Position numbers and translations under genes: made by a program. From the NCBI RefSeq assembly GCF_018607965.1, contig NZ_JABBAM010000040.1:3534-54780 (forward strand): a stretch of 51,247 nt of DNA. The letters are read 5' to 3'. Each line of letters starts with the position of its first letter. The stretch's first letter is position 1. Of the stretch, positions 20,322-35,568 are shown one piece after another. This DNA comes from Planktotalea sp. (GTDB taxonomy: Bacteria; Pseudomonadota; Alphaproteobacteria; Rhodobacterales; Rhodobacteraceae). Below the pieces are notes generated by a model. It was not told the origin of the DNA, ran no database searches, and was given only the letters and a program-made list of their open reading frames with translations.

Positions 20322-20957
20322 ATGCTGACGATCTATAACATCCCGATTTCGATCTACACGGCTAAATTGCGTGTTGTTTTGCGCCATAAGGGGCTTGCTT
20401 GGGAAGAATTAGCGCCCCCTGGTGGATACCGTTCTGATGCGTATCGCAAGATTGTGCCGTCGGGAAATATTCCGACCATGATAGATGGCGATGTGATGCT
20501 GTCTGACAGCGAAGCGATTGCTGAATACCTTGAGGAAAAGCATCCAGAATCCGCGATGATGCCCGTCGGCTTGGTGCCACGTGCCAAAGCACGCGAGCGT
20601 GGGCGCTTTCATGATACGCGGCTAGAGCCAGCCTTGCGGGTTATGTTCCCATTGCTGAAAACCCGTGATCAAGGCGCGCTATCCGTGGCGTTTTCAGAAG
20701 TGAATCGTCATTTTGAAGCGCTCGAAATGCTGCTCACGACCGATGGCCTTCCGACGCGCGACCTGCTTTTGTGTGATGCAGGTTTTGCAGCGACGCTTGA
20801 ATGGTTTGCAATCTTAGAGCGCGCTTTGGGGTTCGAACTGACATGGCCAAGCAGCGTCGTGGCCTATCGAAAGCGACTTAGCAGTTATCCCGCGGTCGCA
20901 AGTGAGATAGAGCATTATCGCCCTGCCATTCGTGCTTATCTTAACTCAGAAGGCTAA
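20322..20957 (+). CDS. Glutathione S-transferase family protein
   Basis: 211 residues, normal GST length. The N-terminal thioredoxin-like domain has SGNIPTM with the cis-proline and SDSEAIAEYLEEKHP with the glutathione gamma-glutamyl site. An all-helical C-terminal domain follows. A serine (I-S-I-Y near residue 10) rather than cysteine lies at the expected catalytic position. It begins right after a terminator and ends in a 4-nt CTAA overlap with the convergent enamidase gene. It borders the heteroaromatic island and could take part in it, for example in isomerisation or detoxification, but nothing in the sequence proves this. Confidence 0.88.
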   Translation: MLTIYNIPISIYTAKLRVVLRHKGLAWEELAPPGGYRSDAYRKIVPSGNIPTMIDGDVMLSDSEAIAEYLEEKHPESAMMPVGLVPRAKARERGRFHDTRLEPALRVMFPLLKTRDQGALSVAFSEVNRHFEALEMLLTTDGLPTRDLLLCDAGFAATLEWFAILERALGFELTWPSSVVAYRKRLSSYPAVASEIEHYRPAIRAYLNSEG

Positions 20958-22129
20958 GCGACGACGCGGGGAAGGCGATTTGCAGGTGGTGTGTTTCGGC
21001 TGCGTTCGGAACACACGACACCATCAATTACTGTCATGCCAACACCCGGTAGATTGCCCAACTGGACGCTTTCCAGAATGTTCTTGCCGGGTGCATGCTG
21101 GGCCTGATCCATCAGCACAAAGTCTGCGCACATACCGATTTCGATCAGCCCCGTATTCAATTTACGTTGACGCGATGTGTTGCCGTTGCCAAAGCAAAAC
21201 GCGATTTCGGCGGGAACATTACCAAAGGCAGACAGCATCGCGATCATGCGCAAGATGCCGAGCGGCTGCACACCTGATCCAGCTGGGCCGTCGGTGCCAA
21301 GGATCACTTGATCCAGTTTTCCAAGCTCGCGCGCAGTGTTTACCGTCAATACCGCCGCGCGTTCGTTGCCGTTATGAACGATCTCGAATGCTGCTTTGCA
21401 ACTTTCGCACAGACAAATGATCTGATCATCGGGCAGCGCCGAATGGCCGCCATTGATGTGACCAATCACATCTGTTCCCGTTTCCATCACCATATCCGCG
21501 TCGATCAAACCTGATCCAGGGATGGATGGGCCACCTGTATGGATCGTGCTTTGAATGCCATACTTACGCGCCCAACCGACCATCTGCTGCGCGGTCTTGC
21601 CGTCTTTTACGGTGCCAAGGCCAACTTCGCCCAGTAACGTCACGCCTGCATCTGCGAGGTCTTTGAAATCTTCTTCGACCATGCCGTGTTCAATGACAGG
21701 CGCACCCGCGTGAACTTTCATGCCGGAGGGGCGGAAATTTTCGTACCAGCGTTGCGCCGCAATCGCCATCGCCTTAAGGCCGACAACATCTTTGGGGCGT
21801 CCGGGCATATGTACTTCACCCGCTGAAATCAGCGTGGTCACGCCGCCGTGTAATGTGCTGTCGATCCAATGCAATTGCTGCTGACGCGGGGTGTAGTCGC
21901 CAATAACCGGGTGGATATGGCTGTCGATAAGACCGGGGGCCAGCGTGACGCCATTTGCATCGATGACTGAATCCGCACCCTCCAAATCCATGTCTTTTTC
22001 GCGCCCCCACTGCACGATCTTGCCGTCTAATGCGATAATGCAATCAGCCTCATAAATAGGTGCTTCCATTTTGCCCGAAAGCATCAGGCCGATATTGTGA
22101 ATGACGAGCTTGCGTGGGGTTTCAGACAT
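20954..22129 (-). CDS. ena: Enamidase-like amidohydrolase (nicotinate-route ring opening)
   Basis: 391 residues from ATG 22129. Amidohydrolase-superfamily enzyme closely resembling enamidase of Eubacterium barkeri (about 385 residues), which hydrolyses 1,4,5,6-tetrahydro-6-oxonicotinate to 2-formylglutarate and ammonia. All metal ligands are present: H71-x-H73 in DSHIHP, E168 in GEVGLGT, H197 in IHTGGPSIPGS, H224 in GHINGG and D280 in LGTDGPAG. Family-specific strings HGGVTTLISAG, PGRPKD and SRNTPPANR are shared with enamidase. It is divergent from the Mo hydroxylase/reductase operon, with a 143-bp shared control region. Together with the reductase homologue this identifies a reductive pyridine-ring pathway. 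The precise substrate remains inferred. Confidence 0.87.
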   Translation of the reverse strand: MSETPRKLVIHNIGLMLSGKMEAPIYEADCIIALDGKIVQWGREKDMDLEGADSVIDANGVTLAPGLIDSHIHPVIGDYTPRQQQLHWIDSTLHGGVTTLISAGEVHMPGRPKDVVGLKAMAIAAQRWYENFRPSGMKVHAGAPVIEHGMVEEDFKDLADAGVTLLGEVGLGTVKDGKTAQQMVGWARKYGIQSTIHTGGPSIPGSGLIDADMVMETGTDVIGHINGGHSALPDDQIICLCESCKAAFEIVHNGNERAAVLTVNTARELGKLDQVILGTDGPAGSGVQPLGILRMIAMLSAFGNVPAEIAFCFGNGNTSRQRKLNTGLIEIGMCADFVLMDQAQHAPGKNILESVQLGNLPGVGMTVIDGVVCSERSRNTPPANRLPRVVA

Positions 22130-22200
22130 TTTGGTTCCTCCCGAATTCGTTTGAACGCTAACAGAAGTTCGATGTCGATCAAGAGGGGGCATGAAAGGAT

Positions 22201-22256
22201 TTGACAGAATCCTCACTTCGATATTCTATTCGTATACAAACAAATATTTTGTGTAC
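22201..22256 (+). promoter_or_regulatory. Divergent control region: promoter plus operator-like palindrome
   Basis: A perfect -35 box TTGACA lies at 22201-22206, with TATTCT at 22222-22227 (15-bp spacer) as the best -10. Immediately downstream, at 22232-22256, is the imperfect palindrome GTATACAAA-N7-TTTGTGTAC (8 of 9 matched positions). It would cover the transcription start, the expected place for a repressor. GTATAC-centred dyads are common GntR/MarR-type targets; the local MarR protein is a candidate. Confidence 0.55.
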
Positions 22257-22272
22257 TTCACGAGGTGCTGTC

Positions 22273-23103
22273 TTGGACTACTTCACGCCAACACGTTTGC
22301 AAGACGCGCTAACCGCATTGGGATCTGGGGCGCCAAGCATCATTGCAGGTGGTACTGATTGGTATCCTGTGCAGGGAGAAAAATCTATTCGCTGTGACAT
22401 GCTCGATATAACGCGGATTGAAGGATTGCGTTGCATTTCCCGTGACGCGCAGGGATTGCGTATTGGGGCGGCAAGCACATGGACGGATATTATTAAGGCG
22501 GACCTTCCACCCGCGTTCAAAGGGCTGAAAACGGCCGCGCGCGAAGTGGGTTCTGTTCAAATCCAGAATGCTGGCACGATTGCGGGTAACCTGTGCAACG
22601 CATCCCCCGCTGCAGACGGTGTGCCGCCTTTGCTGACGCTGAATGCGCAGGTGGAGTTGGAGTCTTCGAATGGCATACGCGTTTTGCCTTTGTCGGATTT
22701 CATCACGGGTGTTCGCCAAATCGCGCGTAAAGCGGATGAATTGGTGACGGCGATTCTTATTCCTGACCTCTCTGAAACGCGCAGAAGTTCGTTTGTTAAG
22801 TTGGGTGCGCGCAAGTACTTGGTGATCTCGATCGCAATGGTTGCAGTGACATGCGAGGTAACGGATGGCGTGTTGAGCGACGTGCACATTGCTGTTGGAT
22901 CCTGTTCGCCAGTTGCTCAAAGATTGACTGGACTGGAAGCTGCATTAGAGGGGCTTCGCGTTAGCGACGTTGAGACGGTTATCGCCAAGGCGGACCTGTC
23001 GCGCCTTAGCCCAATCGACGATGTGCGCGGTTCAGGTGAGTATCGCTTCGATGTTGTCGCTTCGCTGATCAAGCGTGTATTAGAGGAGGCAGCCCATGAA
23101 TAA
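22273..23103 (+). CDS. Molybdenum hydroxylase FAD-binding subunit (CoxM/XdhB type)
   Basis: 276 residues from TTG 22273. That start has GAGGTG five to ten bases upstream and gives the family N-terminus DYFTPTRLQDAL; the open frame upstream to 22201 overlaps the promoter and has no family similarity. This subunit carries electrons from the Fe-S clusters of the partner to FAD. The FAD diphosphate-binding strings are IIAGGTDW and the pair NAGTIAGNLCNASPAADGVP. The C-terminal CO_deh_flav domain follows. It overlaps the next gene by 8 nt (23096-23103), so expression is coupled. A separate FAD subunit beside a fused Fe-S/Mo subunit is the arrangement seen here. Confidence 0.92.
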   Translation: MDYFTPTRLQDALTALGSGAPSIIAGGTDWYPVQGEKSIRCDMLDITRIEGLRCISRDAQGLRIGAASTWTDIIKADLPPAFKGLKTAAREVGSVQIQNAGTIAGNLCNASPAADGVPPLLTLNAQVELESSNGIRVLPLSDFITGVRQIARKADELVTAILIPDLSETRRSSFVKLGARKYLVISIAMVAVTCEVTDGVLSDVHIAVGSCSPVAQRLTGLEAALEGLRVSDVETVIAKADLSRLSPIDDVRGSGEYRFDVVASLIKRVLEEAAHE

Positions 23104-25816
23104 GTCTTCGCAGATTGAGTTCACCTTGAACGGACGTGCGGTCCAAAGCACGTCAGCCCGCCAAACGCGCCTAAGCGTGGTTTTGCGCGAAGAACTGGGT
23201 GCAAAAGATGTCAAAATCGGCTGTAACGCAGGCGATTGTGGGGCCTGTACGGTTTTGATCGATGGCGCGCCCGTTTGTGCCTGTCTCACGTCTAACGCTC
23301 AGGCGGCAGGGCGTAATGTTCAAACTTTGCAAGGTGTTGCGCCTGATATCCTTGCTGATTTGCAAAAAAGCTTCACCGCGCATCAAGCCGCGCAATGCGG
23401 TATTTGTACCCCTGCAATGATCGTGAGTGCGGCGGCGCTTTTAGCTGAAAACCCAAAACCAAATTCTGAGCAAGTTCAGGACGCTTTGGGTGGTGTGTTG
23501 TGCAGATGTACGGGCTATCGCAAAATCATTCATGCGGTTGTCGCGGTTGGTGAAAACCAGTCGGTCATTGCTGCAAAAGGCTCTGTTGGCGATCCGATTG
23601 CGCGATTGGATGCTTTGCCAAAGGTCGATGGGACAGAACTGTTTGGCGACGATGTTGCGCCCGTTGGCGCGCTCGTGGCGTTGGTGATCCGATCGCCGTT
23701 TCCGCGTGCTGCTTTTGAGTTTGGAGATCTGGATTCGGTGCGTGCAATCGAAGGAATTGAAGCGGTTCTGACAGCACAGGATGTGCCGGGCGTTAACCTA
23801 TTTGGCACCATTCCAGGCTTTATTGATCAGCCAATGTTTTCCGAAACTGAAACCCGCTTTAAGGGTGAGGCGGTTGCAGCTATCATTGGTGATGCGGACG
23901 TTATTTCAAGCTATGACATAACTGATTTTGCGATCAATTGGACGGAGCTCCCCAGTGTTCAGGACGTGAGCGAAGCCCAAAACAGCAACGTCGCGCAGAT
24001 CCATGAAGGTCACGACAACAATGTGATGTGTGGCGGGTTTGTTGCACACAGCGATATCGACGCGGGCTTGGCTGACGCTGATATCGTGCTGAGTGCAGAG
24101 TTTGAGACGTCCTTTGTAGAACACGCCTATATTGAACCCGAAGCAGGTTTTGCAGAAATGGTTGATGGCCGCGTGCATTTACATGTTTGCACACAAGCCC
24201 CAGTTATGAACCAAGAGGCCTTGGCAGGTCTGTTGGCACTTGAAAATAATGATATCAGGATTGTGCCGACGGCAGTTGGTGGTGGTTTTGGGTCCAAGCT
24301 GGATTTGACGGTACACCCCTATCTTGCGCTTGGTGCGATGGTCACGGGTCGCCCTGTTCGCATGGCCTATTCGCGAGTGGAAAGCATGGCAACATCAACC
24401 AAACGCCACCCTGGTAGGATCACGATTAAAGGGGGCGTTCGCAAGGATGGTCGCCTGACAGGTCTACGCTTTGACGGTGATTTTAATACGGGTGCCTATG
24501 CCAGTTGGGGCCCGACGGTTGCGAACCGCGTGCCGCTACATGCGTCTGGTCCATACAGCATTCCCAACTACCGCGCTCAGTCCAAAGGGATTTACACGAA
24601 TTGTCCCCCTGCGGGCGCATTTCGTGGTTTCGGAGTCCCCCAATCGGCTATCGCGCAAGAGACTTTATTTGACGAACTCGCCGCTGCAATTGGGATGGAC
24701 GCGCTTGATTTCCGCATGCTGAATGCGTTGGATAATGGCGTAGCGACGGTATCGGGACAGGTGTTTGAACAGGGTGTTGGGGTGAAAGCCTGTTTGGAGG
24801 CGTTGCGCGAGGCGTGGGTTGCAGAACAGCTTGAATGCCGAACGTTCAATGACATCGAAGGGCACTTGAAACGTGGTGTCGGTCTTGCGGCAGGCTGGTA
24901 TGGCTGTGGCAACACGTCCATGGCGAACCCGTCAACGATCAAATGCGGTTTGCGCAGCGATGGCACCTTGGTTTTGCATCAAGGTGCTGTGGATATCGGG
25001 CAGGGATCCAACACTGTCATCACACAAATTTTTGCGCAAGCGTTTGGCGTGCGCCCAGATCAGGTTTCGATTGTTGGCCCTGACACGGATATTACGCCAG
25101 ATGCGGGCAAAACGTCTGCCTCACGCCAGACATTTGTGACGGGTAACGCGGCCAAACTTTCGGCCGAAAGCCTTCGGCGCCAAGTTTTGGAACTGGTAAA
25201 CGCTGCCGAAGATGCCGAGATTATTTTAGGTAATACTGTGATTACCTTAAGTGGGGGGCACTCCATTGACCTTGCGAGGATGGATACAGGCGCGGACGGA
25301 TACGTCATGCGCGCTGTGGCCAGCTATGATCCGCCAACTGCGCCGCTGGATGAGAACGGTCAAGGCGTGCCTTACGCGCAATTTGGGTACGCTGCACATT
25401 TGGCTGTGGTCGAGGTGGACACGCAACTTGGAACAATCAAACCGCTGCGTTTTGTTGCCGCGCATGATGTGGGCCAAGCGATCAATCCTTTGCTGGTCGA
25501 GGGGCAAGTGCAAGGCGGCGTTGCCCAAGGTCTTGGTATGGCTTTGATGGAGGAATTTATCCCGGGGCGCACCGAAAATCTGCATGACTATTTGATTCCC
25601 ACAATCGGCGATGTTCCTCCGATTGAAACGCTGATCATCGAAGAACCAGATGCGCATGGACCCTATGGTGCCAAGGGTCTTGGCGAACATGCATTGATTC
25701 CCACCGCGCCTGCCATTTTGAACGCAGTTCATTTTGCAACAGGTGTGCGTTTGCGCCATGTTCCAGCCTTGCCGCACCGCGTCCGTGCCGCTTTGAAGGA
25801 GGCTGGATATGCCTGA
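23096..25816 (+). CDS. Molybdenum hydroxylase, fused 2Fe-2S and Mo-binding subunit
   Basis: 906 residues, xanthine dehydrogenase superfamily. The N-terminus holds both 2Fe-2S sites: C43-x4-C48-x2-C51-x11-C63 (plant type) and C101-x2-C104 with C136-x-C138. From about residue 180 comes the Mo-binding region: VGGGFGSKLD, the RGFGVPQ loop near GAFRGFG, and the catalytic glutamate E864 in AKGLGEHA. Together with the FAD subunit it should hydroxylate a heteroaromatic ring carbon using water. Length and Fe-S/Mo fusion resemble Desulfovibrio aldehyde oxidoreductase (about 907 residues), but a partner FAD subunit and the pathway context favour a nicotinate-type dehydrogenase. No XdhC- or MocA-like maturation gene is adjacent. 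It overlaps the reductase gene by 8 nt. Confidence 0.92.
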   Translation: MNKSSQIEFTLNGRAVQSTSARQTRLSVVLREELGAKDVKIGCNAGDCGACTVLIDGAPVCACLTSNAQAAGRNVQTLQGVAPDILADLQKSFTAHQAAQCGICTPAMIVSAAALLAENPKPNSEQVQDALGGVLCRCTGYRKIIHAVVAVGENQSVIAAKGSVGDPIARLDALPKVDGTELFGDDVAPVGALVALVIRSPFPRAAFEFGDLDSVRAIEGIEAVLTAQDVPGVNLFGTIPGFIDQPMFSETETRFKGEAVAAIIGDADVISSYDITDFAINWTELPSVQDVSEAQNSNVAQIHEGHDNNVMCGGFVAHSDIDAGLADADIVLSAEFETSFVEHAYIEPEAGFAEMVDGRVHLHVCTQAPVMNQEALAGLLALENNDIRIVPTAVGGGFGSKLDLTVHPYLALGAMVTGRPVRMAYSRVESMATSTKRHPGRITIKGGVRKDGRLTGLRFDGDFNTGAYASWGPTVANRVPLHASGPYSIPNYRAQSKGIYTNCPPAGAFRGFGVPQSAIAQETLFDELAAAIGMDALDFRMLNALDNGVATVSGQVFEQGVGVKACLEALREAWVAEQLECRTFNDIEGHLKRGVGLAAGWYGCGNTSMANPSTIKCGLRSDGTLVLHQGAVDIGQGSNTVITQIFAQAFGVRPDQVSIVGPDTDITPDAGKTSASRQTFVTGNAAKLSAESLRRQVLELVNAAEDAEIILGNTVITLSGGHSIDLARMDTGADGYVMRAVASYDPPTAPLDENGQGVPYAQFGYAAHLAVVEVDTQLGTIKPLRFVAAHDVGQAINPLLVEGQVQGGVAQGLGMALMEEFIPGRTENLHDYLIPTIGDVPPIETLIIEEPDAHGPYGAKGLGEHALIPTAPAILNAVHFATGVRLRHVPALPHRVRAALKEAGYA

Positions 25817-27302
25817 GGATGCCACCGATACCATGCACGTGAAACCAGAGAAAATTCGCTGCGATGCCTGTCCTGTGATGTGTTTCATCTCAGAGGGCAA
25901 AGCGGGGGCGTGCGATCGTTATGCCAATCACGCGGGCGACCTTGTGCGCCTTGATCCATTGACGGTTATCGAGAACGGCGCGCCTGCGGTTGCCTTTCTT
26001 GGTCAGGGCAAAGATCCCAAAAATTGGAACGGCGACGTGTTGCAAGGATCGCGCCCCTTTGTGACGGCTGTCGGGGCTGGTACGACCTATCCCGATTACA
26101 AACCAGCACCCTTCATTGTTAGCCAAGACGTTGACGGCGTTGATATGATCACGGTCGTGACCGAGGGGATCTATTCCTACTGCGGCGTGAAAGTGAAAAT
26201 CGACACGGATCGTTTCATCGGCCACGAACGTGCGGTTGTGCGTGTGAACGGAGAAGCGATTGGGCATGTAATGACATCTGAATATGGTTCCAAGATGCTC
26301 TCGCTTGGCGGGGTCGAACACTTGACAGGTGGTACGAAATCCGCGGGCCGTGTGACCTGTGATGCGTTGATGAACCTGTGCAATCGCGACGCGGTCACGA
26401 TGCAGATTGACGAGGGCGCAGAGATTATCGTGCAGGCGGGCATAGCTCCGATCATCAATGGCGTGCGCGAAAAACTGATGCGGGTTGGGTGTGGCTCTGC
26501 GGCGATTGGAATGTTCGCCAAACAATGGGAACCCCACGTGGACGAGGTGATCGTCGTGGATGATCATATCACGGGCGTTTTGACGGAACATGAAGCGGGC
26601 AAGCAGCTTAATATGCGCCCCTCTGGAGTAAAAATTAAAGGACGTCGTTCAACGCCGGGTCGCTATTTTCAGGTCGCCGAGCCGGGGACTGGGTGGGGCG
26701 GTACGGACGTGGAAGACCCGCTGACAATTTTGAAACCTGCGGATGCGAAAAAGGCGTGGGTAGGTTTGCGGTTGTTAATGGTGTCTACGACGGGCGAGCA
26801 GTGGGCGTATTATGAATTAGACGACGATCTGATCCCACGGCCCGCCGAGATTTCTGAAGAGCTACGCATTACTGCGGATCGCATCGCAGAGAACTGCGAA
26901 CCCTCCCTCTGTTCAGTTCTCTTCATGGGCGGCGCAGGTGGATCGTTGCGGGCTGGTGTTACGGAAAACCCCGTCCGGCTAACGCGTTCTGTCAAGGATG
27001 CGCTGACTTATGTGTCGTGCGGTGGTGCCGAAGCCTATGTTTGGCCCGGTGGTGGGATCACGGTGATGGTTGATGTCATGGAAATGCCCACGAATTCATT
27101 TGGCTATGTGCCAACGCCTGCGCTTGTGGCACCCATCGAATTCACCTTGCGGCGCGAAGACTATGACGCGCTGGGCGGTCACATGGAGTACATCATCGAC
27201 GCTGCAAGCGTGCTAAAGGGGGAGTTGCGCAAAGTCACGCGTATGCCGTCCCAGCCTGATCCGCACCAAGCGCAAAAAACCAAACGGATCCTGCGGGGAT
27301 GA
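25809..27302 (+). CDS. hnr: 6-hydroxynicotinate reductase homologue
   Basis: 497 residues. The N-terminus carries a ferredoxin-like cluster motif C18-x2-C21-x3-C25-x9-C35 (CDACPVMC ... GAC). The rest has glycine-rich and mixed alpha/beta segments such as EGIYSYCGVKVKI, GGTKSAGRVTCDAL, VGCGSAAIG and CGGAEAYVWPGGGI. It belongs to the family of E. barkeri 6-hydroxynicotinate reductase, an iron-sulfur flavoprotein that reduces 6-hydroxynicotinate to 1,4,5,6-tetrahydro-6-oxonicotinate with ferredoxin. The divergent enamidase homologue would act on that product. The ATG overlaps the Mo-subunit stop by 8 nt and its own stop overlaps the UPF0280 gene by 4 nt. I see no exact D-G-x-x-S/T-G-A-T flavinylation motif. 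No dedicated ferredoxin gene lies nearby. Confidence 0.82.
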   Translation: MPEDATDTMHVKPEKIRCDACPVMCFISEGKAGACDRYANHAGDLVRLDPLTVIENGAPAVAFLGQGKDPKNWNGDVLQGSRPFVTAVGAGTTYPDYKPAPFIVSQDVDGVDMITVVTEGIYSYCGVKVKIDTDRFIGHERAVVRVNGEAIGHVMTSEYGSKMLSLGGVEHLTGGTKSAGRVTCDALMNLCNRDAVTMQIDEGAEIIVQAGIAPIINGVREKLMRVGCGSAAIGMFAKQWEPHVDEVIVVDDHITGVLTEHEAGKQLNMRPSGVKIKGRRSTPGRYFQVAEPGTGWGGTDVEDPLTILKPADAKKAWVGLRLLMVSTTGEQWAYYELDDDLIPRPAEISEELRITADRIAENCEPSLCSVLFMGGAGGSLRAGVTENPVRLTRSVKDALTYVSCGGAEAYVWPGGGITVMVDVMEMPTNSFGYVPTPALVAPIEFTLRREDYDALGGHMEYIIDAASVLKGELRKVTRMPSQPDPHQAQKTKRILRG

Positions 27303-28132
27303 TGGGCGTCCAAGCAGCCCTTTTGTCGGGCGACCGTCTGCACCTACAACATGGCCCGATTGATTTGATCATTGGAGTCGATGGCGAACGCATGCTTGCT
27401 TTCGAGGCCGCGCAAACACGGCTTGGTACGGTCTTGGCAGAATTGATGGACGAGATTGATCTTTTGCGCATGGTCCATGGGCCAAAGCCAAAGGGGTGCA
27501 TTGCTTTGGCGATGTGGCGTGCGGCGCAAGCGCATGATGGATTTGTAACGCCTATGGCGGGTGTCGCGGGGGCTGTCGCTGAAACGGTTTTGGACGCGAT
27601 GCAGCAAGCCGCGTCTTTCAAGCGCGCCTATGTGAACAACGGCGGTGACATCGCGCTTCACGTGTCTGGCGACGCTGTGTTCTCGGTTGGTATGGCTGGT
27701 GTGAAGGGCGGCGCGCTTGGTAAGATTACATTGAGTGCTGACAGCCCCATTCGCGGTATCGCGACGAGTGGGCAGGGCGGTCGCAGCCTGTCCTTTGGTA
27801 TTGCGGATAGTGTCACGGCCTTAAGCGAAACGGCCTGCAAAGCCGATGTGGCGGCAACTTTGATTGCGGGTGCTGTCGATCTGCCAGATCACCCCGCGAT
27901 TACGCGCCAAAATGCGAATGAGATCGTTGATCAAAGTGACTTGGGTGCTATGAGGGTGGTCACGCATGTTGGGCAGTTGACTCTAGCAGAGGTCACGCGC
28001 GCGCTTGAAACTGGCCTAAGCCACGCGCGTGATATGCAAGAAGCTGGCCTAATTCACGCGGCCAGCTTGCATTTTCAGGGTCAAAGCAGACAAATAGAAA
28101 TGAACAACAAGAAGGTGCTAGAACATGCCTGA
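27299..28132 (+). CDS. UPF0280-family protein (ApbE superfamily)
   Basis: 277 residues. Recognised as UPF0280 (COG2122) by GPIDLIIGVDGER, the TPMAGVAGAVAETVLDAM helix, the AYVNNGGDIALHV strand-turn, and GIATSGQGGRSLSFGIADSVT. The last two are the counterparts of the FAD/Mg-binding NxGGD and TSG segments of ApbE flavin transferases. It lacks a signal peptide, unlike periplasmic ApbE, so it should act in the cytoplasm. Position between the ring reductase (4-nt overlap) and the DUF1185 pair (8-nt overlap) suggests a dedicated role. Flavin attachment or flavin-dependent chemistry for the reductase is a reasonable guess, not shown. Confidence 0.82.
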   Translation: MMGVQAALLSGDRLHLQHGPIDLIIGVDGERMLAFEAAQTRLGTVLAELMDEIDLLRMVHGPKPKGCIALAMWRAAQAHDGFVTPMAGVAGAVAETVLDAMQQAASFKRAYVNNGGDIALHVSGDAVFSVGMAGVKGGALGKITLSADSPIRGIATSGQGGRSLSFGIADSVTALSETACKADVAATLIAGAVDLPDHPAITRQNANEIVDQSDLGAMRVVTHVGQLTLAEVTRALETGLSHARDMQEAGLIHAASLHFQGQSRQIEMNNKKVLEHA

Positions 28133-28709
28133 TGTAGAGATCCGCAAGATTGCAACGGTCATTGAAGAAGTCTTTCACGAGGGTGGTCCACGCGCAAACG
28201 TGCCCCAAAGACGTGGAGCTGTTATCGCGGTCATCGCGAACCCCTACGCGGGACAATATGTTGAGGACATTCAACCGTTCATGGAAGACCTAAAGCCACT
28301 GGGCTTGCAAATGGGGCAAAAGTTGATTGATGCGCTCGGCGGTGATGCGAGTATGATCGAAGGCTATGGTAAAGGCTCAATCGTCGGTACGGCGGGTGAA
28401 TTGGAGCACGGGGCGCTTTGGCATGCGCCGGGCGGATACGCGATGCGCGAACTTTTGGGTGATGCAAAGGCGATAGTCCCGTCCACGAAAAAGGTGGGCG
28501 CGGCGGGCGTTCGTTTGGACGTTCCGATCACTCATATCAACGCATCCTACGTGCGCGGACATTTTGATGCGATGGAAGTTGGCATGAATGACGCGCCCCG
28601 TGCAAATGAGCTGGCGTTCGTTCTGGTGATGAGCACAGGCGCACGCGTGCATGACAGGGCTGGTGGGTTGCCCGCGAGTGCGATCAAAGGTGAGGATGGT
28701 CTACGATGA
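28125..28709 (+). CDS. DUF1185 (AA_synth) family protein, copy 1
   Basis: 194 residues of the PF06684-type family labelled amino acid synthesis without a proven reaction. Conserved blocks shared with the next gene are VIANPYAG, the ESYG/EGYG-type glycine turn GYGKG, GELEHG, VPSTKK-G, RLDVPITH and NDAPRANE. No signal peptide or membrane segment, so it is cytosolic. It overlaps UPF0280 by 8 nt and its paralogue by 4 nt. The invariant Lys pair after VPS and the NDAPRANE motif look like an active or binding site. The context implies a step near ring reduction or ring opening. Confidence 0.8.
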   Translation: MPDVEIRKIATVIEEVFHEGGPRANVPQRRGAVIAVIANPYAGQYVEDIQPFMEDLKPLGLQMGQKLIDALGGDASMIEGYGKGSIVGTAGELEHGALWHAPGGYAMRELLGDAKAIVPSTKKVGAAGVRLDVPITHINASYVRGHFDAMEVGMNDAPRANELAFVLVMSTGARVHDRAGGLPASAIKGEDGLR

Positions 28710-29290
28710 AAGCTGACATTCGCAAGATTGCTGTTTTCGTTGAAGAAACACATCGTGAGGCAGGGCGTTCAATTGCACCTGCCACGCGTAAAGCCGTTGC
28801 TGTCGCGGTCATCGCGAACCCATATGCGGGGGGATACACCGAGGATTTGAAACCCTTGATGGATATTGGCGCTGAACTTGGCGAAACGCTCGGCAAGCGC
28901 TGTGTCGAAGCGCTCGGCATCAAGCCTGCACAGGCCGAAAGCTATGGAAAAGCTGCGATGGTGGGCGAAAATGGAGAGCTAGAACACGCCGCCGCTTTGC
29001 TGCACCCCAAGATGGGTGCGCCTTTGCGCAAAGAAGTTGAAAAGGGTGCCGCCCTTGTGCCGTCGTCTAAGAAAATGGGTGGCCCTGGACAGGATTTAGA
29101 TGTGCCGTTGGGACATAAAGATGCGGCCTATGTGCGGTCACATTTCGATGGAATAGAAGTCCGTTTGAACGATGCACCGCGTGCGAATGAAATCATGGTT
29201 GCAGTTGCCGTTACAGACGGCGGGCGGCCTTTACCGCGCGTTGGTGGCTTGTTGCACGCGGATGCGGTGGGCAAAGATGGGTTGCGTTAA
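28706..29290 (+). CDS. DUF1185 (AA_synth) family protein, copy 2
   Basis: 194 residues, exactly the length of copy 1 and alignable over the whole chain, with the same blocks (VIANPYAG, SYGKA, GELEHA, VPSSKKMGG, DLDVPLGH, NDAPRANE, GKDGLR end). Many other positions differ, so this is an old duplication or two specialised subunits and not a recent repeat. ATGA coupling to copy 1 supports 1:1 production and a hetero-oligomer. The stop shares a 4-nt TTAA overlap with the convergent MarR gene. Biochemical role unknown. Confidence 0.8.
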   Translation: MKADIRKIAVFVEETHREAGRSIAPATRKAVAVAVIANPYAGGYTEDLKPLMDIGAELGETLGKRCVEALGIKPAQAESYGKAAMVGENGELEHAAALLHPKMGAPLRKEVEKGAALVPSSKKMGGPGQDLDVPLGHKDAAYVRSHFDGIEVRLNDAPRANEIMVAVAVTDGGRPLPRVGGLLHADAVGKDGLR

Positions 29291-29724
29291 AGTTTTTCCA
29301 GAAGGGCCAGCAAGCGTTCCGTTTCGCGCGTACTTAGGTTTGCAGTTGTGCGCGCCGAGATTTTAGTTGCTGTCGCGATTGCGCGGGATGCAAACTCTTG
29401 TCCTGTTGAGGTTAAAGAAATCTCTAGCCTGCGCAAATCGGTTTTAGACGCGGTGCTTTGAACAAACCCTTTGCTGCGCAAACGATCCACGACGCCTTTT
29501 GTGGTTGCCGAATCCATGCCAACACGGCGTCCCAGATGATTTTGCGACAATGGTCCGTCGGCGTGAAGGCGTGCGAGGATGGCAAATTGCGTTGGGGTCG
29601 CGTCTGGCATCAACTCTGCAAAGTGCTCTAGGTGCTTTTGGTTCGCCAAACGCAGCTTGAAACCGATCTGATCTTCCAGACGGTATTCGACCTTCTGCGC
29701 ATTGCTTGCCTCGTCTTTGATCAT
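29287..29724 (-). CDS. MarR-family transcriptional regulator
   Basis: 145 residues from ATG 29724, selected because GGGAGA lies upstream at proper distance; ATG 29748 is an alternative without a ribosome site. The winged helix-turn-helix is clear: TPTQFAILARL, LSQNHLGRRVGMDSATTKGVVDRLRSKG-type recognition region and the DLRRLEISLT wing, flanked by dimerisation helices. MarR proteins often repress catabolic operons and release DNA on binding an aromatic acid. It lies between the reductive operon (convergent, 4-nt overlap) and the Rieske gene (divergent), the natural place for a local regulator of the island. Confidence 0.92.
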   Translation of the reverse strand: MIKDEASNAQKVEYRLEDQIGFKLRLANQKHLEHFAELMPDATPTQFAILARLHADGPLSQNHLGRRVGMDSATTKGVVDRLRSKGFVQSTASKTDLRRLEISLTSTGQEFASRAIATATKISARTTANLSTRETERLLALLEKL

Positions 29725-29766
29725 TCGCCGCGTTCTCCCTATTTTCATAGGATACGAGCGAAAATA

Positions 29767-29835: not shown

Positions 29836-30903
29836 ATGCCGTTTGTACGTAATGCGTGGTACGTTGCTGGCTGGTCCAAGGACTTTGCGGATGATCTGCG
29901 CGCGATCACGATCACTGAACAAAATATGGTGTTGTTTAGGGCCTCCGACGGAGAACTTGTTGCCTTGGAAGATCGCTGTCCGCACCGCCTGTTGCCACTC
30001 TCTAAAGGCAAACGCGTTGGCGATACGGTGCAATGTGGCTACCACGGAATGACGTTTGGGCGTGATGGGAAATGCGTGCGCGTTCCGGGTCAAGATAACC
30101 TTCCTGCGTCGGCGTATGTTGATACATATCCTGTTCACGAAGCCCATGGAATCGTTTGGATTTGGCCTGGTGAAGCAGCTTTGGCTGCAAACACGCCCGT
30201 CTTTGACATGCCTGAATTTTCCGACCCGAATTGGCATGCGCATCACGGCGATGGGCTGCATCTACACGCGAACTATCTCAACGTCGCAGAGAACCTTGTT
30301 GATCCTGCGCACGTCAGTTTTGTGCATCCAACAACGCTGGGCAGTGCCGCGTCTGAAAACGTACCTGTGCATGTGTCGACGTCTGGTGATGTGATCCTCG
30401 CGTGGCGTTGGATCAAGGACTCCGCTCCCGTTGGGTTCTTTCAGAATTTTGGCGATTTCACAGGCAATGTGGATCGCTGGCATTACTACTATTTGCACCT
30501 GCCCAGTACGGCTGTCATTGATTTCGGCAGTGCGGATGTGGCGGCTAACCTCTCTGAGGATGAACGTGACAAGGGCGTACGCATTTTCGCGCTGCACTTT
30601 GTGACGCCTGTGACCGAGGACTTTACGATCGATTACTGGATGCACCTGCGCAACACGGCGGTTGGCGACGAAGCTGCGTCAGAAAATATGGACACGATGT
30701 TCCGCATCGCGTTTTCTGAGGACAAAGAGGTGCTGGAAGCCATCAACATTGAAGAACAGCGTCCACAGAAGCGTAAACCCATCAGAATTGCCATCGACAA
30801 AGGGCCAAACGTGTATCGCAAACGAATACGCGACCTTGTCGAACTGGAGGCCACCGAAGATCTCGGTGCGCCTCTCCATCCGACCTTTGTGCAGCACGAC
30901 TGA
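29836..30903 (+). CDS. Rieske non-haem iron oxygenase, VanA-type
   Basis: 355 residues from ATG 29836, with GGGAGAG nine bases upstream; the open frame upstream overlaps marR on the other strand and is not coding. The Rieske 2Fe-2S site is C48-x-H50-x16-C67-x2-H70. The mononuclear iron site is D156-x2-H159-x4-H164 in NLVDPAHVSFVH. Size and MPFVRNAWYVAGW start match single-polypeptide oxygenases such as vanillate O-demethylase and N-demethylases. Such enzymes hydroxylate a methyl group, which leaves as formaldehyde, or a ring. No reductase gene is adjacent, so electrons must come from elsewhere. It is followed by the ABC importer genes and is a candidate first catabolic step. Confidence 0.92.
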   Translation: MPFVRNAWYVAGWSKDFADDLRAITITEQNMVLFRASDGELVALEDRCPHRLLPLSKGKRVGDTVQCGYHGMTFGRDGKCVRVPGQDNLPASAYVDTYPVHEAHGIVWIWPGEAALAANTPVFDMPEFSDPNWHAHHGDGLHLHANYLNVAENLVDPAHVSFVHPTTLGSAASENVPVHVSTSGDVILAWRWIKDSAPVGFFQNFGDFTGNVDRWHYYYLHLPSTAVIDFGSADVAANLSEDERDKGVRIFALHFVTPVTEDFTIDYWMHLRNTAVGDEAASENMDTMFRIAFSEDKEVLEAINIEEQRPQKRKPIRIAIDKGPNVYRKRIRDLVELEATEDLGAPLHPTFVQHD

Positions 30904-30939
30904 CGCTGCTAGGGTCGACCCAACAGAAAAGGGATGACC

Positions 30940-32148
30940 ATGAAACGTAAGATATTTTTGAAAAGCCTTGTAGGCGCGATTGCGATTGCGGCTGTCGGCC
31001 TGCCTGCGCTTGCGCAAGAGACGATCAAGATTGGTGAGATCAACCACTACAAGCGCCTCGCGGCCTTTGCAGGTCCCTATAAATTAGGCATCGAGATGGC
31101 TATTGAAGAGGTGAACGCAGCAGGTGGTGTGCTTGGCAAGCCGCTCGAATTCATTTTCCGCGATGACCAAGGCAAGCCCGGTGAAGCGGTGAAGATTGCC
31201 GAAGAGCTTATGACGCGTGAGGGCGCTGTGATGCTGACGGGCACGATCTTGTCCAATGTTGGTTTGGCGATTTCATCGCTCGCGGCAGAAAAAAAGTATG
31301 TCTACCTGGCGTCAGAGCCTTTGGCCGATGCAATCACATGGTCCAAGGGCAATGACTACACGTTCCGCCTGCGGTCCTCCACATACATGCAAGCGGCCAT
31401 GCTGGCTGAACAAGCTGCGCAAACCGATGCGATCCGTTACGCGACAATCGCGCCGAACTATGCGTATGGCAAAGATGCGGTCGCAGCGTTCAAGAAGGCG
31501 CTGACAAAGCTAAAGCCCGAGGTTGAATTCGTAGCAGAGCAGTGGCCTGCCTTGTTCAAGATCGATGCGGGCGCTGAGGCGCAAGCGATTGAGCGCGCTA
31601 AGCCAGACGCGATCTACAACGTGACATTCGGGGGCGACCTTGCAAAATTCGTTCGCGAAGGCGGCACACGCGGCTTGTTTGAAGGCCGTAATGTTTACGG
31701 TCTCCTTTCAGGTGAACCTGAATATATGGATCCTTTAGGTGATGAAGCGCCTGAAGGTTGGGTTGTCACAGGTTATCCTTGGTCCGAAATTACGGAAGGA
31801 CCGGGTAAGGTCTTCGTTGATGGCTACATGGCGAAATACGACGATCACCCCCGTATCGGATCGCTTGTTGGCTATATGACCGTGCAATCTGTCGTGGCTG
31901 TTCTGGAAAAAGCAGGTTCTACTGATAGTGAAGCCATTCGTGCGGCGTTTGCGGACCTACCCGTCAGCACACCTGTTGGCGATATCACGTACCGTGCGAT
32001 TGATCACCAATCCACAATGGGTGCTTTCGTTGGTACAATTGCCTTAAAGGACGGCAAAGGGACGCTGGTTGATTGGTCTTATAAGAACGGTGGCGACTAC
32101 ACTTTGCCAGACGAAGAAGTCATGAAACTACGCGGTTCTGGCAACTAA
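30940..32148 (+). CDS. Liv-type ABC transporter substrate-binding protein
   Basis: 402 residues from ATG 30940, seven bases after an AAAAGGGA ribosome site (ATG 30934 is too close to it). The signal peptide ends LPALAQE. Mature protein is a type-I periplasmic fold of the branched-chain amino acid family: TIKIGEINHYKR, GIEMAIEEVNAAGGVLGKPL, EELMTREGAVMLTGT, and YGKDAVAAFKKAL. Family members bind amino acids, amides or aromatic carboxylates. The cluster context suggests an aromatic acid. It lies 36 bp behind the Rieske gene and is separated from the permease gene by two hairpins, which may allow higher production of the binding protein. Confidence 0.92.
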   Translation: MKRKIFLKSLVGAIAIAAVGLPALAQETIKIGEINHYKRLAAFAGPYKLGIEMAIEEVNAAGGVLGKPLEFIFRDDQGKPGEAVKIAEELMTREGAVMLTGTILSNVGLAISSLAAEKKYVYLASEPLADAITWSKGNDYTFRLRSSTYMQAAMLAEQAAQTDAIRYATIAPNYAYGKDAVAAFKKALTKLKPEVEFVAEQWPALFKIDAGAEAQAIERAKPDAIYNVTFGGDLAKFVREGGTRGLFEGRNVYGLLSGEPEYMDPLGDEAPEGWVVTGYPWSEITEGPGKVFVDGYMAKYDDHPRIGSLVGYMTVQSVVAVLEKAGSTDSEAIRAAFADLPVSTPVGDITYRAIDHQSTMGAFVGTIALKDGKGTLVDWSYKNGGDYTLPDEEVMKLRGSGN

Positions 32149-32172: not shown

Positions 32173-32177
32173 GAAAC

Positions 32178-32238: not shown

Positions 32239-34098
32239 ATGGGTCTCTTCATCGCGCAAATCCTGACAGGTTTGGCCAATGCAAGCGCACTTTTTATGGT
32301 TGCTTCAGGCCTTTCCCTGATTTTTGGCGTCACACGGATCGTGAACTTCGCGCATGGCTCATTTTACATGCTGGGCGCTTATGTGGGCTATTCTTTCATG
32401 CAGATTTTGCCAGGGGCATTCGGATTTTGGGCGTCGATCCTTTTGGCAGGTCTCGTTGTCGGGATCATCGGCATTATTGTCGAAATATTGGTCCTACGTC
32501 CTGTCTACAAAGCGCCTGAGCTGTTCCAGCTGGTCGCGACGTTTGGCGTAATTCTCGTCATTCAAGACCTCACATTGTTGGTTTGGGGCGCGGACGATTT
32601 CCTTGGCCCGCGTGCGCCGGGTTTGAAAGGTATCATTCGGATCATGGGGGAACCCGTTCCGAAATATGACCTTGCTTTGATCGCGCTGACGCCGTTCGTG
32701 GCCTTCGCGCTTTGGTGGCTGATCACCAAAACCCGCACAGGCATTCTCGTGCGCGCGGCAACGCAAGACCGCGAAATGGTTGGCGCTTTGGGTGTGAACC
32801 AAGCATGGCTTTTCACGGGTGTTTTCTTCCTCGGTTGCGCGCTTGCGGGGCTCGGCGGCGCGGTGCAACTCCCCAAAGGCGGCGCGGACTTGTTGATGGA
32901 TTTCAACATTCTTAGTGCAATCTTTGTTGTCGTGGTAATTGGCGGCATGGGATCGCTCCCAGGTGCCTATGTAGCCGCTGTTCTCATCTCTGTTCTCAAC
33001 GTGTTCGGTGTGAACTACCTGCCGCAATCCACACTCGCCCTGATGTTTGTTGTCATGGTCGTGGTCCTGATCTTCCGCCCTTTCGGTCTGTTTGGACGAG
33101 AGGAAGTCGCGGGCGAGCATGGGCAGGTTGGGGAGCCGGAACGCCCGATCAAACCCGCAGGTCAGAGTGCGCGGATGATTGTGATGTTTGGCCTCTTTCT
33201 CATGGCGCTGCTTCCGATTGTGGGGGATAGCTTTATCCTTGTTCTCATCACCGACATTGCGATTTTCTGTTTGTTCGCGGCTTCGCTGCATTTCCTACTT
33301 GGCCTTGGTGGTCTCGTCTCTTTCGGTCACGCGGCCTACTTTGGCGGTGGTGCTTATGCAGCGGCCTTGCTTGTTACATATGCGGGCACGCCGATGGAGC
33401 TTGCGTTGATCCTTGCGCCCCTTGCGGCAGGCCTAACTGCAATCATTTTCGGCTGGGTCTGCCTGCGCTTGACGGGTGTTTATTTCGCCATGCTTACGCT
33501 CGCCTTCGCGCAGCTTTTGTGGTCGCTGGTCTTCCAATGGGGCGATTTTACGGGTGGCGACGATGGGCTTGTGGATATATGGCCATCTGATTGGGCAAGT
33601 GGGACGACCACGTTCTATTACTTGTCGATGGTACTCTGTGTCGGAGGCATCATACTGCTGCGCCACACCGCCCATTCGCCGTTTGGGTATGCGTTACGTG
33701 CTGCACGAGACAGCCAGCGGCAGGCGGAATCTACAGGTATCCACACCAAGCATGTTCAATTGGTCGCCTTCGGTTTCGCGGGGGCCATGGCGGGTATCGC
33801 GGGTGGCTTGTTCGTGTTCTCAAAAGGCTCGATCTTTCCGAATGAACTAGAAATTGCACGCAGCTTTGATGCGTTGATTGTTGTTTTTCTAGGCGGCGTA
33901 AAAACCCTCGCAGGTGGCGTCGTCGGCGGTGCTGCGCTTGAAGGGGCTAAGGACTACATCACGCGATTTGAATACTGGCGGTTGCTGCTGGGTCTGCTGA
34001 TTATCTTCGTTGTGATTGTTGCGCCTGATGGCATCGCAGGCACGTTGCGTAAATGGGCCGAAAAAATTGGCTTTATGAAACGGGAGGATCAAGCATGA
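32239..34098 (+). CDS. Fused LivH-LivM ABC permease
   Basis: 619 residues from ATG 32239 (CAGGAGC upstream). Residues about 1-290 are a complete LivH-type permease: FSLIFGVTRIVNFAHGSFYMLGAY-like region near residue 20-45, the GALGVNQAWLF loop, and GGMGSLPGAYVAA. A hydrophilic linker (about 295-325) joins it to a LivM-type permease: GLGGLVSFGHAAYFGGGAYAA-like start, a second EAA-like loop ARDSQRQAESTG, and GGVKTLAGGVVGGA. The two halves normally are separate proteins; the fusion fixes their 1:1 ratio. The stop overlaps the ATPase start by 4 nt (ATGA, 34095-34098). Confidence 0.93.
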   Translation: MGLFIAQILTGLANASALFMVASGLSLIFGVTRIVNFAHGSFYMLGAYVGYSFMQILPGAFGFWASILLAGLVVGIIGIIVEILVLRPVYKAPELFQLVATFGVILVIQDLTLLVWGADDFLGPRAPGLKGIIRIMGEPVPKYDLALIALTPFVAFALWWLITKTRTGILVRAATQDREMVGALGVNQAWLFTGVFFLGCALAGLGGAVQLPKGGADLLMDFNILSAIFVVVVIGGMGSLPGAYVAAVLISVLNVFGVNYLPQSTLALMFVVMVVVLIFRPFGLFGREEVAGEHGQVGEPERPIKPAGQSARMIVMFGLFLMALLPIVGDSFILVLITDIAIFCLFAASLHFLLGLGGLVSFGHAAYFGGGAYAAALLVTYAGTPMELALILAPLAAGLTAIIFGWVCLRLTGVYFAMLTLAFAQLLWSLVFQWGDFTGGDDGLVDIWPSDWASGTTTFYYLSMVLCVGGIILLRHTAHSPFGYALRAARDSQRQAESTGIHTKHVQLVAFGFAGAMAGIAGGLFVFSKGSIFPNELEIARSFDALIVVFLGGVKTLAGGVVGGAALEGAKDYITRFEYWRLLLGLLIIFVVIVAPDGIAGTLRKWAEKIGFMKREDQA

Positions 34099-34874
34099 GC
34101 GCGGTTCTTGAAGTGCAGGGCCTGAGCAAGGCTTTTGGTGCTATCCAAGCGGTGGATAACGTGTCGTTCGCGTTGCAAAAGGGCGAGCTGCTTGCGTTGA
34201 TCGGCCCTAACGGTGCGGGCAAAAGTACATGTTTCAACATGCTCATGGGGCAATTGAAATCAAGCGCTGGCACGGTCAAGCTGAACGGCCAAACCCTTGC
34301 GGGCCTGAAGCCTCGCCAAATTTGGCGCAAAGGGGTGGGACGCACCTTTCAGATCACCGGAACCTACACGTCAATGACGGTGATCGAGAATGTGCAAATG
34401 GCGCTGATATCGCATCATCGTAAAATTTATTCCCTGCTGCCGCGCGCCCATAAGATGTATTGTGACGCAGCGATGGACCTGCTTGATCTGGTTGGCATGG
34501 CAGATCAATCGGAACGCCATTGCGCTGTTTTAGCTTATGGTGATTTGAAACGTCTCGAACTCGCGATTGCTTTAGCGCATGAGCCGACGCTTTTGTTGAT
34601 GGACGAACCGACAGCTGGGATGGCACCTGCGGAACGGATCGCGTTGATGCAGCTAACGGCGGATATCGTCGAAAGCCGCGGGGTCAGCGTGTTGTTTACG
34701 GAACATGATATGGACGTCGTTTTTGCCCATGCGCATCGTGTGATGGTTTTGAACCGAGGTCAGTTGATCGCCAATGGCTCCGTCGATGAAATTCGAAATG
34801 ATGATCGTGTGCGCGAGGTTTACCTTGGGGGCGGGACGCTGTTCAAGCATGACGGGGAGAGTGCACATGCTTGA
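34095..34874 (+). CDS. Liv-type ABC transporter ATPase (LivG-like)
   Basis: 259 residues from ATG 34095, coupled to the permease stop. Walker A GPNGAGKST, signature LAYGDLKR (LivG spelling of LSYGxQR), Walker B LLLMDEPTAGMAP, and H-loop FTEHDMDVVF. The C-terminal extension with VREVYLGGG is typical of LivG. It overlaps the second ATPase gene by 8 nt (34867-34874). Confidence 0.94.
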   Translation: MSAVLEVQGLSKAFGAIQAVDNVSFALQKGELLALIGPNGAGKSTCFNMLMGQLKSSAGTVKLNGQTLAGLKPRQIWRKGVGRTFQITGTYTSMTVIENVQMALISHHRKIYSLLPRAHKMYCDAAMDLLDLVGMADQSERHCAVLAYGDLKRLELAIALAHEPTLLLMDEPTAGMAPAERIALMQLTADIVESRGVSVLFTEHDMDVVFAHAHRVMVLNRGQLIANGSVDEIRNDDRVREVYLGGGTLFKHDGESAHA

Positions 34875-35568
34875 GATCAAAGGCATCAACAGCTTTTACG
34901 GTAAGGCACATGTTCTGCGCGACCTGAGTTTCGATGTGGAACGCGGGCAAGTTGTTGCGCTACTTGGGCGCAACGGTGCTGGCAAAACGACGACGATGAA
35001 ATCGGTCATGCAATTGGTTGTGCCCGAATCGGGGTCTGTCACGTTTCAAGGTGTCGAAATTACACGAATGGCCCCGCACAAGGTGGCCAAAATGGGTCTG
35101 GGCTATGTACCAGAAGAACGGCGCATTTTCACGGACTTGACTGTCATGGAAAACCTAGAAGTGGGCCGCCAGCCTGCGCGCGCGCAGGCCGTGACGTGGA
35201 ACGAGGACATGCTGTTTGACATGTTCCCCAACTTGGCTGAACGGCGCACGAACCGTGGCAAGGAACTGTCGGGTGGAGAACAGCAAATGCTGACAATCGC
35301 GCGTACGTTGATGGGTAATCCTAGTTTGATCTTACTTGATGAACCCTCAGAGGGCATCGCACCTGTAATTGTCGAAGAAATGGCGCGCGTTATTTTGAAG
35401 CTGAAGACAGAAGGGCTGACGGTTCTGTTGTCTGAGCAAAACCTGCATTTTGCACAGGCCGTGGCAGACCGGGTCGTGATTGTGGAAAGTGGTAGTGCTA
35501 AATATCAAGGTACGATGGCTGAACTGAACGCAAACCCTGAAATTCGCGATACATACCTGTCGGTTTAA
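34867..35568 (+). CDS. Liv-type ABC transporter ATPase (LivF-like)
   Basis: 233 residues from ATG 34867; longer upstream frames overlap the LivG-like gene and are not plausible. Walker A GRNGAGKTT, YVPEERRIF (LivF-specific Q-loop region), signature LSGGEQQM, Walker B LILLDEPSEGIAP, and H-loop LSEQNLHFA. It completes a five-part importer (binding protein, two permease domains, two ATPases). The operon ends at the terminator 35711-35747 unless the intervening hairpin region is a separate RNA. Confidence 0.94.
   Translation: MLEIKGINSFYGKAHVLRDLSFDVERGQVVALLGRNGAGKTTTMKSVMQLVVPESGSVTFQGVEITRMAPHKVAKMGLGYVPEERRIFTDLTVMENLEVGRQPARAQAVTWNEDMLFDMFPNLAERRTNRGKELSGGEQQMLTIARTLMGNPSLILLDEPSEGIAPVIVEEMARVILKLKTEGLTVLLSEQNLHFAQAVADRVVIVESGSAKYQGTMAELNANPEIRDTYLSV

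Follow-up and report, generated by a model that had tools for sequence, protein, structure and literature searches.

The island described here occupies positions 20,954 to 35,568 of a 51,247-nucleotide stretch of DNA from Planktotalea sp. (Rhodobacteraceae), referred to below as the window. At its centre, a homologue of 6-hydroxynicotinate reductase (Hnr, 497 residues; 25809..27302, plus strand) is followed by a protein of the UPF0280/COG2122 family (27299..28132, plus strand). Both genes belong to a six-gene operon that begins with the flavin adenine dinucleotide (FAD) subunit of a hydroxylase of the xanthine dehydrogenase family (22270..23103, plus strand, starting at GTG 22270 or TTG 22273), continues with a 906-residue subunit in which the Fe-S and molybdopterin parts are fused (23096..25816, plus strand), and ends with two DUF1185 proteins, D1 (28125..28709, plus strand; PF06684, E 1.5e-69) and D2 (28706..29290, plus strand; PF06684, E 4.1e-74). 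Overlaps of 8, 8, 4, 8 and 4 nucleotides mark its five junctions, in agreement with an earlier account of the same DNA (hereafter the preliminary description), whose named genes were all recovered, at or near the places it gave them. A homologue of enamidase, the ring-opening amidohydrolase (391 residues; 20954..22129), is encoded on the minus strand. The nearest relatives of the whole block are found in Planktotalea and strain HTCC2083 (L001-L004). The gene order of the island is repeated across many genera, far above chance, and phage records hold no near match to 20954-29290.

The island is best read as importing a pyridine carboxylate, its putative substrate, which is then hydroxylated, reduced and opened by hydrolysis. 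We consider it probable that this compound, most likely nicotinate or an N-methylated nicotinate, is opened reductively in an aerobe and that UPF0280 is a helper for Hnr. The evidence supports a pathway of this class, which has been described before. New are a near-obligate partnership of Hnr with UPF0280, which has an ApbE-like fold, and a set of exchangeable ring-opening modules in which D2 is tied to the enamidase.

The Hnr-UPF0280 partnership

Among 390 genomes of the order Rhodobacterales, Hnr and UPF0280 each occur in 98, and the two sets are identical. In 96 of these 98, UPF0280 follows Hnr within 200 bp; in the other two (G099 and G106) it lies upstream, across a gap of about 4.2 kb. 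Since Hnr (or, once, its remains) is present in a quarter of the order's sampled genomes, reductive ring breakdown may be common in the aerobes of this group. The remains are those of G150, where Hnr and UPF0280 are both fragments, side by side. The locus concerned (L109) is a decayed island in which a DUF1185 gene and importer genes persist.

A class-level sample of 279 genomes gives identical sets of 40 once two short Hnr matches of about 35 residues (G441 and G569) and four weak UPF0280 matches (G487, G497, G509 and G531; E 4.6e-7 to 6.5e-4) are dropped, rows that were set aside after the results had been seen. The phylum-level sample again gives identical sets (9 of 135 genomes, three of the nine being shared with the class sample). 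Hnr was found in 26 plasmid records, all of which also carry UPF0280, and UPF0280 in 27. The window's genome has a single UPF0280 gene, at the island. Of 14 control genomes, the two with UPF0280 are methanogens, and both also have DUF39.

Counts per locus come from a neighbourhood sample of 113 loci (45 named, 40 picked by hand, distant Hnr being over-sampled, from the order-level genomes with Hnr and UPF0280, and 28 from the wider samples). The counting set consists of the 91 loci in which Hnr has 6 kb or more of sequence on either side; L044 was dropped from the tests for its split Hnr match, leaving 90, of which 86 are in the tree. The gene-calling script of the survey mis-called some antisense open reading frames, and gene presence was therefore taken from tblastn. 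DUF1185 is more loosely associated with Hnr than UPF0280 is: it occurs in 95 of the 98 Hnr genomes, and also in 96 of 292 genomes without Hnr, and is missing from eight of the 91 loci, as against one for UPF0280.

The pairing is not without exceptions. The plasmid of Hydrogenophaga sp. BPS33 has UPF0280 without Hnr, and four class-level genomes have weak UPF0280-like matches and no Hnr; one of these, G531 (E 4.6e-7), might be a genuine distant relative. One locus of the 91, L011, has Hnr without UPF0280. The sampled genomes share ancestry, so that the pairing counts are not independent. L011 belongs to Cypionkella psychrotolerans PAMC 27389, whose second Hnr locus (L009) does have UPF0280, and two Hnr loci with one UPF0280 are as expected for a helper working in trans. 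As to the Hydrogenophaga plasmid, pBPS33-1 (L189), UPF0280 is matched there at four places. In the stretch viewed, IS1071 elements flank repeated units that encode UPF0280, MarR, Rieske and tripartite-transporter proteins together with a VanB-type reductase; Hnr is absent.

For the window Hnr, neither Pfam nor NCBIfam gives a family match at E 0.001, and the PDB yielded no sequence match. Relatives of this Hnr are named 6-hydroxynicotinate reductase in plasmid annotation, and a Bradyrhizobiaceae relative is given as 42% identical to the Eubacterium barkeri enzyme in the cited passages of PMC3511419. The name rests on these two sources, and the reaction is predicted. Cysteines 18, 21, 25, 35, 125, 184, 228 and 363 are present in every row of two alignments, enough for several Fe-S clusters. 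The E. barkeri reductase contains a covalent flavin as well as Fe-S clusters. A structure model of the window protein is weak (mean predicted local distance difference test score, pLDDT, 72.6; below 50 for residues 1-111), and Foldseek returned nothing for it at E 0.001 or better. Its best structural match, the C-terminal barrel of GcvT (Z 4.9 over 66 residues), is too weak to use; a weak sequence match to GCV_T_C occurs in 27 of 35 Hnr rows (best E 0.00024). A relationship of Hnr to DUF39/COG1900 found no support at the sequence level: with E up to 10 allowed, PF01837 does not appear among the family matches of 35 Hnr members, and PDB sequence searches gave nothing. Residues 16-47 (25854-25949), of the form CxxCPxxC...G.C..R.N..G, resemble the cysteine module of the AmmeMemoRadiSam radical S-adenosylmethionine enzymes (TIGR04337). 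The weak 35-residue matches that the Hnr profile gives in L182, L183 and L184 are proteins of this kind, identified by scan in L182 and L184 and by sequence in L183.

Fold and possible function of UPF0280

UPF0280 is probably a dedicated helper that makes Hnr active rather than a step of the pathway, and it probably acts by handling the flavin of Hnr. The window protein matches NF003322 with 319.4 bits (cut-off 290), and its structure model (pLDDT 93.4) has an ApbE-type fold. Compared with solved structures, the model is closest to DVU1097, a member of the UPF0280 family (Z 20.2), then to ApbE flavin transferases (Z 14.1-16.2); the next unrelated structure scores 7.6. The best ApbE match, 1vrm (Z 16.2), superposes with a root-mean-square deviation of 3.0 over 206 residues. 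Consistent with this, 25 of 33 UPF0280 relatives give a weak match to PF02424, the ApbE family (best E 2.8e-6).

The positions of three motifs, NxGGD, SG and DxxxT, are invariant in UPF0280. We take S157 and D183, both invariant, to lie in motifs like those of the catalytic Ser and Asp of ApbE, an equivalence drawn from motif likeness and not from a residue-level alignment. Vibrio cholerae ApbE has its catalytic residues at Ser241 and Asp285, with a His between them (PMC12052999, in the part cited).

Other features fit a flavin transferase less well. No Pfam family is matched by the window UPF0280, even at E up to 10, and a catalytic His of the ApbE type is not conserved: if S157 and D183 are indeed the ApbE equivalents, a His of any kind lies between them in 12 of 33 rows, and in the window protein there is none. 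According to a view cited by Price et al., the homology with ApbE does not reach the flavin-binding region.

The strict ApbE target, D-x-x-[ST]-G-A-[ST] (DxxTGAT), occurs in none of the 35 Hnr rows. A related sequence, D112-x-x-T-[VI]-V-T118, is present in all 35, so that D112, T115 and T118 form a candidate motif. Shuffling the window Hnr produces the loose pattern D-x-x-[ST]-x-[AV]-[ST] in 6.4% of cases; the window Hnr has a second, unconserved match to it at 397, and a fully conserved match appeared in 6 of 5000 alignment column shuffles. The pattern was loosened post hoc, and the motif is therefore suggestive only. A more specific and tentative proposal is that UPF0280 is a cytosolic enzyme of the ApbE superfamily that attaches flavin mononucleotide to the invariant Thr118 of Hnr, with a changed active site and a changed target motif; we hold it to be rather unlikely in this exact form.

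The leading alternative is that UPF0280 serves Hnr not as a flavin enzyme but as a factor for sulfur trafficking or Fe-S maturation, which we regard as possible, though somewhat unlikely. COG2122 is needed together with DUF39 and a NIL/ferredoxin protein for homocysteine formation in Desulfovibrio (cited passages of PMC5764234), and MA1715, an archaeal relative of UPF0280, is termed a sulfur trafficking protein (cited passages of PMC12068725). The eight invariant cysteines of Hnr and the lack of conservation of the ApbE His are also in keeping with such a role. Against it, no Cys is conserved at 90% or more among 33 UPF0280 proteins, which makes a Cys-persulfide carrier unlikely in this set; the fold is that of ApbE, and the E. 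barkeri reductase carries its flavin covalently. With no DUF39 found in the genome of the window (91% complete), the DUF39 route to homocysteine is probably not what UPF0280 serves there. If UPF0280 is a flavin transferase, the same chemistry might explain why COG2122 is needed beside DUF39 in homocysteine synthesis.

A second alternative assumes that UPF0280 is a structural subunit, or an enzyme of the pathway in its own right, and travels with Hnr merely through their shared operon. Adjacency in 96 of 98 genomes is what this would predict. However, the DUF1185 genes of the operon are lost more often than UPF0280, G099 and G106 retain both genes despite the gap between them, and L011 may depend on the second locus of its strain. 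We consider this explanation doubtful and prefer the helper role. UPF0280, so far an uncharacterized family, thereby becomes a testable maturation factor for Hnr. The preliminary description had counted three families without known function in the island. The proteins are three but the families two, and one of them, UPF0280, has under its COG2122 name the homocysteine role cited above. In print, COG2122 occurs in four of 17 matching papers, and the name UPF0280 in none of the matches listed.

Identity to the Planktotalea relatives is 66-70% for the FAD and UPF0280 genes, 86-96% for most of their neighbours, 81-83% for the molybdenum subunit and 61-83% for the MarR gene. Recombination as the source of the low identity in the FAD and UPF0280 genes was weighed and rejected: among pairs of relatives the divergence is comparable in FAD (66-69% identity in three of four pairs) and strong in UPF0280 (68-78% in all four). 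As the divergence is also seen among the relatives, the two genes seem simply to evolve fast.

Ring opening, substrate and import

The amidohydrolase is a clear relative of enamidase, as the preliminary description had proposed, and hydrolysis of tetrahydro-6-oxonicotinate is its predicted reaction. It matches the E. barkeri enamidase 2VUN over residues 7-389 of 391 (E 3.4e-104, 352 bits), with 43.6% identity in 383 aligned residues. In the PDB search 2VUN is the sole sequence past E 1e-20; four other amidohydrolases come in under the E 0.001 cut-off, each at 2.7e-5 or worse. Residues H67, H69, E164, H193, H220 and D276 (2VUN numbering), which we presume to be the metal ligands (HxH, E, H, H, D), are kept in at least 41 of 42 aligned sequences, 2VUN among them.

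The hydroxylase is less informative. Pfam detects in it all the modules present in nicotinate dehydrogenase (Ndh), that is FAD (PF00941 and PF03450 in the FAD subunit), [2Fe-2S] (PF01799) and molybdopterin (PF02738, PF20256). Two features count against calling it Ndh. The molybdenum subunit is one fused 906-residue chain, whereas the large and medium chains of Ndh (3hrd A and B) are split, and it matches other hydroxylases better than Ndh; 3hrd is among many family matches in the PDB, many others scoring higher. The substrate thus cannot be read from the FAD and Fe-S/molybdopterin proteins, and given the fused chain the enzyme is not filed as Ndh.

The enamidase is one of two kinds of ring opener found beside Hnr. 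Among the 91 loci, 42 have an enamidase, 20 have HyuA or HyuB, 29 have neither within reach and none has both; Hyu stands for hydantoinase/oxoprolinase and was checked with Pfam on one locus. On the Hnr tree, which has 86 rows, enamidase and Hyu loci are intermingled: the enamidase label changes 14 times, at least 11 of the changes being forced, and L169, an enamidase/D1/D2 locus, falls within a largely Hyu group. Annotated plasmids alternate too, with HyuAB in Sagittula, hyuA and hyuB in Neorhizobium, and an amidohydrolase in Sulfitobacter and Comamonadaceae.

D2 keeps company with the enamidase. The preliminary description had suggested a search for co-occurrence of the enamidase, reductase, UPF0280 and DUF1185 genes; beyond the near-strict Hnr-UPF0280 pair and the looser DUF1185, the co-occurrence counts show D2 to be present in 41 of 42 enamidase loci. 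We take L044 to be the sole enamidase locus of this set with D1 only. With L044 removed, D2 is present at 41 of 41 enamidase loci as against 15 of 49 others (Fisher 2.8e-13, a test that ignores shared ancestry) and at 2 of 20 Hyu loci; D1 and D2 were told apart by the best match to the window pair. The Sagittula plasmid carries HyuAB with two DUF1185 genes of unassigned type, which may go against the rule. D2 is a close relative of Ruegeria pomeroyi SPO0826 (2qtp, E 8.7e-101), whose authors noted importer genes nearby and suggested amino-acid metabolism (cited passages of PMC2954203). The co-occurrence suggests that D2 acts on the product of the enamidase. A branch of DUF1185, a family named 'amino acid synthesis', is thus placed in the catabolism of N-heterocycles.

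Downstream of the operon lie a MarR-family regulator (29287..29748, minus strand; PF01047, E 5.7e-13), a Rieske oxygenase of the vanillate/dicamba demethylase type (29836..30903, plus strand, 29836 being the likely start) and an ATP-binding cassette (ABC) importer. The latter comprises a substrate-binding protein of the branched-chain amino acid type (30934..32148, plus strand; PF13458), a fused double permease with two stretches of PF02653 (32239..34098, plus strand; the longest open reading frame starts at 32185) and two ATPases, UrtD/LivG-like (34095..34874, plus strand) and UrtE/LivF-like (34867..35568, plus strand). The gene downstream of the importer is ftsH. On its other side the island adjoins a second ABC importer, of the amino-acid type, and a GST-like gene (17839-20957), four genes that are also found in L004 and not in L001-L003. 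A 551-residue protein (L015:4149-5801) with no Pfam match, membrane-like by eye, occurs in 16 loci near an importer with another type of substrate-binding protein (SBPb).

The Rieske protein matches PF00355 (E 4.9e-22) and PF19112 (VanA_C, E 5.7e-43), and its CxH...CxxH motif can be read in the translation. The preliminary description had the Rieske enzyme combined with the reductive genes; it is present among them, but as an accessory in 22 of the 91 loci rather than as a core member, the other 69 lacking it. Of the 22, 19 have the window's importer type (including L011, where the match to the substrate-binding protein is just 27%) and none has SBPb. From this distribution, the Rieske enzyme probably stands outside the reductive core and carries out the initial reaction on an imported compound that bears a modification, for instance an N-methyl group. 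Several relatives have a gene annotated as ferredoxin-NADP reductase next to the operon, with FAD- and NAD-binding domains confirmed in two of them; its product could feed either Hnr or the Rieske enzyme. One of these relatives is on a Sulfitobacter pontiacus plasmid that has the same gene set, Rieske included.

MarR probably senses the substrate. A 25-bp near-palindrome lies at 22232-22256, upstream of the FAD gene. A shared operator was considered and rejected, since this pattern was not found upstream of FAD in the relatives scanned and the likeness of the two divergent intergenic regions was equalled in 2 of 60 shuffles.

The order of events may then be as follows. The importer would bring in the pyridine carboxylate and, where the Rieske enzyme is present, a derivative would be trimmed at the expense of O2, most simply by demethylation. 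The FAD/Fe-S/molybdenum enzyme, assigned by family, would hydroxylate the ring beside its nitrogen, and Hnr, by analogy with E. barkeri, would reduce the hydroxylated ring with low-potential electrons, having been activated by UPF0280, probably through flavin handling. Hydrolysis by the enamidase, as expected from its family and metal site, would release ammonia or methylamine and a formylglutarate-type acid, on which D2, and possibly D1, would act. The MarR protein would probably act as the substrate sensor.

Alternatively, these enzyme families may act with another regiochemistry, on a pyridine-2-carboxylate (picolinate or homarine) or on a different N-heterocycle. Homarine is common in marine habitats, and the hosts of the island are marine. 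The HyuAB-type openers that replace the enamidase at other loci show that more than one downstream route is built on Hnr. N-methylated substrates are hinted at by the Rieske gene and by an Oxidored_FMN protein, presumably TMADH/N-methylproline-demethylase-like, encoded by the Hnr operon in four loci (L099, L107, L108 and L112; Pfam-checked in L099). On the other hand, the metal site and many polar positions of the enamidase match the solved enzyme, which acts on a 3-carboxylate, and the cited passages of PMC3511419 connect 6-hydroxynicotinate with a related cluster from a strain that degrades nicotinate. No paper on bacterial homarine genes is among the literature matches listed. We judge a 2-carboxylate or other heterocycle unlikely, and retain nicotinate or its N-methylated form.

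That the Rieske enzyme rather than the molybdenum enzyme performs the first ring hydroxylation, the reductive genes acting on a different compound, is improbable: its position between operon and importer, its co-segregation with the latter and the presence of the hydroxylases SxtDIOX and SxtT among its solved relatives would fit, but the 69 loci without it keep the remaining genes and its best solved relative is the demethylase DdmC (131.8 bits).

Comparison with known systems

Reductive breakdown of the nicotinate type is already known in an aerobe, so the island is best regarded as a marine variant. A conserved cluster that covers the first three steps and also encodes a putative importer and two conserved proteins of unknown function was described in 2012 in strain SG-6C, Azorhizobium, Bradyrhizobium and Rhodopseudomonas, with gene roles assigned by BLAST. 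SG-6C used nicotinate as its only source of carbon, 6-hydroxynicotinate appearing transiently, and the route was said to have been reported in the aerobe Azorhizobium (all in the cited passages of PMC3511419). A 2022 paper also summarizes the reductive route (PMC9304392, in the part cited). The preliminary description's suggestion of a pathway variant not yet described therefore mostly falls; what stands is a marine variant with the Hnr-UPF0280 pairing and swappable openers. Like the Azorhizobium/Bradyrhizobium/SG-6C cluster, the island has Hnr, the first three steps, an ABC importer and conserved unknown proteins. Unlike that cluster as presented in those passages, it is marine and has MarR, a Rieske enzyme, a fused Fe-S/molybdopterin subunit with an FAD subunit, and two DUF1185 genes. 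The passages do not name their two unknown proteins as UPF0280 and DUF1185. In G692 (L175) and G761 (L174), Hnr, UPF0280 and a D2-type gene occur together.

The island shares with the nicotinate fermentation of E. barkeri an enamidase with a conserved metal site and a hydroxylase of the same superfamily, and differs in that E. barkeri is an anaerobe with split molybdenum subunits. The later E. barkeri steps involve 2-hydroxymethylglutarate and methyleneglutarate mutase. None of the steps after ring opening, down to glutarate, was recognized within the island. The preliminary description had noted their absence; by the same token its word 'complete' goes too far, while the enzyme families support the import and reductive opening that it proposed. 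Membership of Hnr in the E. barkeri family is a further likeness, drawn through the 42% identity published for its relative (cited passages of PMC3511419).

UPF0280 resembles the ApbE flavin transferases (1vrm, 6nxi, 7esa) in the fold of the whole domain (Z 14-16). Unlike ApbE, it has no conserved catalytic His, and Hnr has no strict DxxTGAT target. It belongs to the same family as the COG2122 proteins of homocysteine synthesis (DvMF_0044, MA1715 and the solved DVU1097; 2o34, E 3.4e-11 with the profile), which likewise partner a redox/Fe-S enzyme system. The partner there is DUF39 with NIL/ferredoxin, whereas here it is Hnr.

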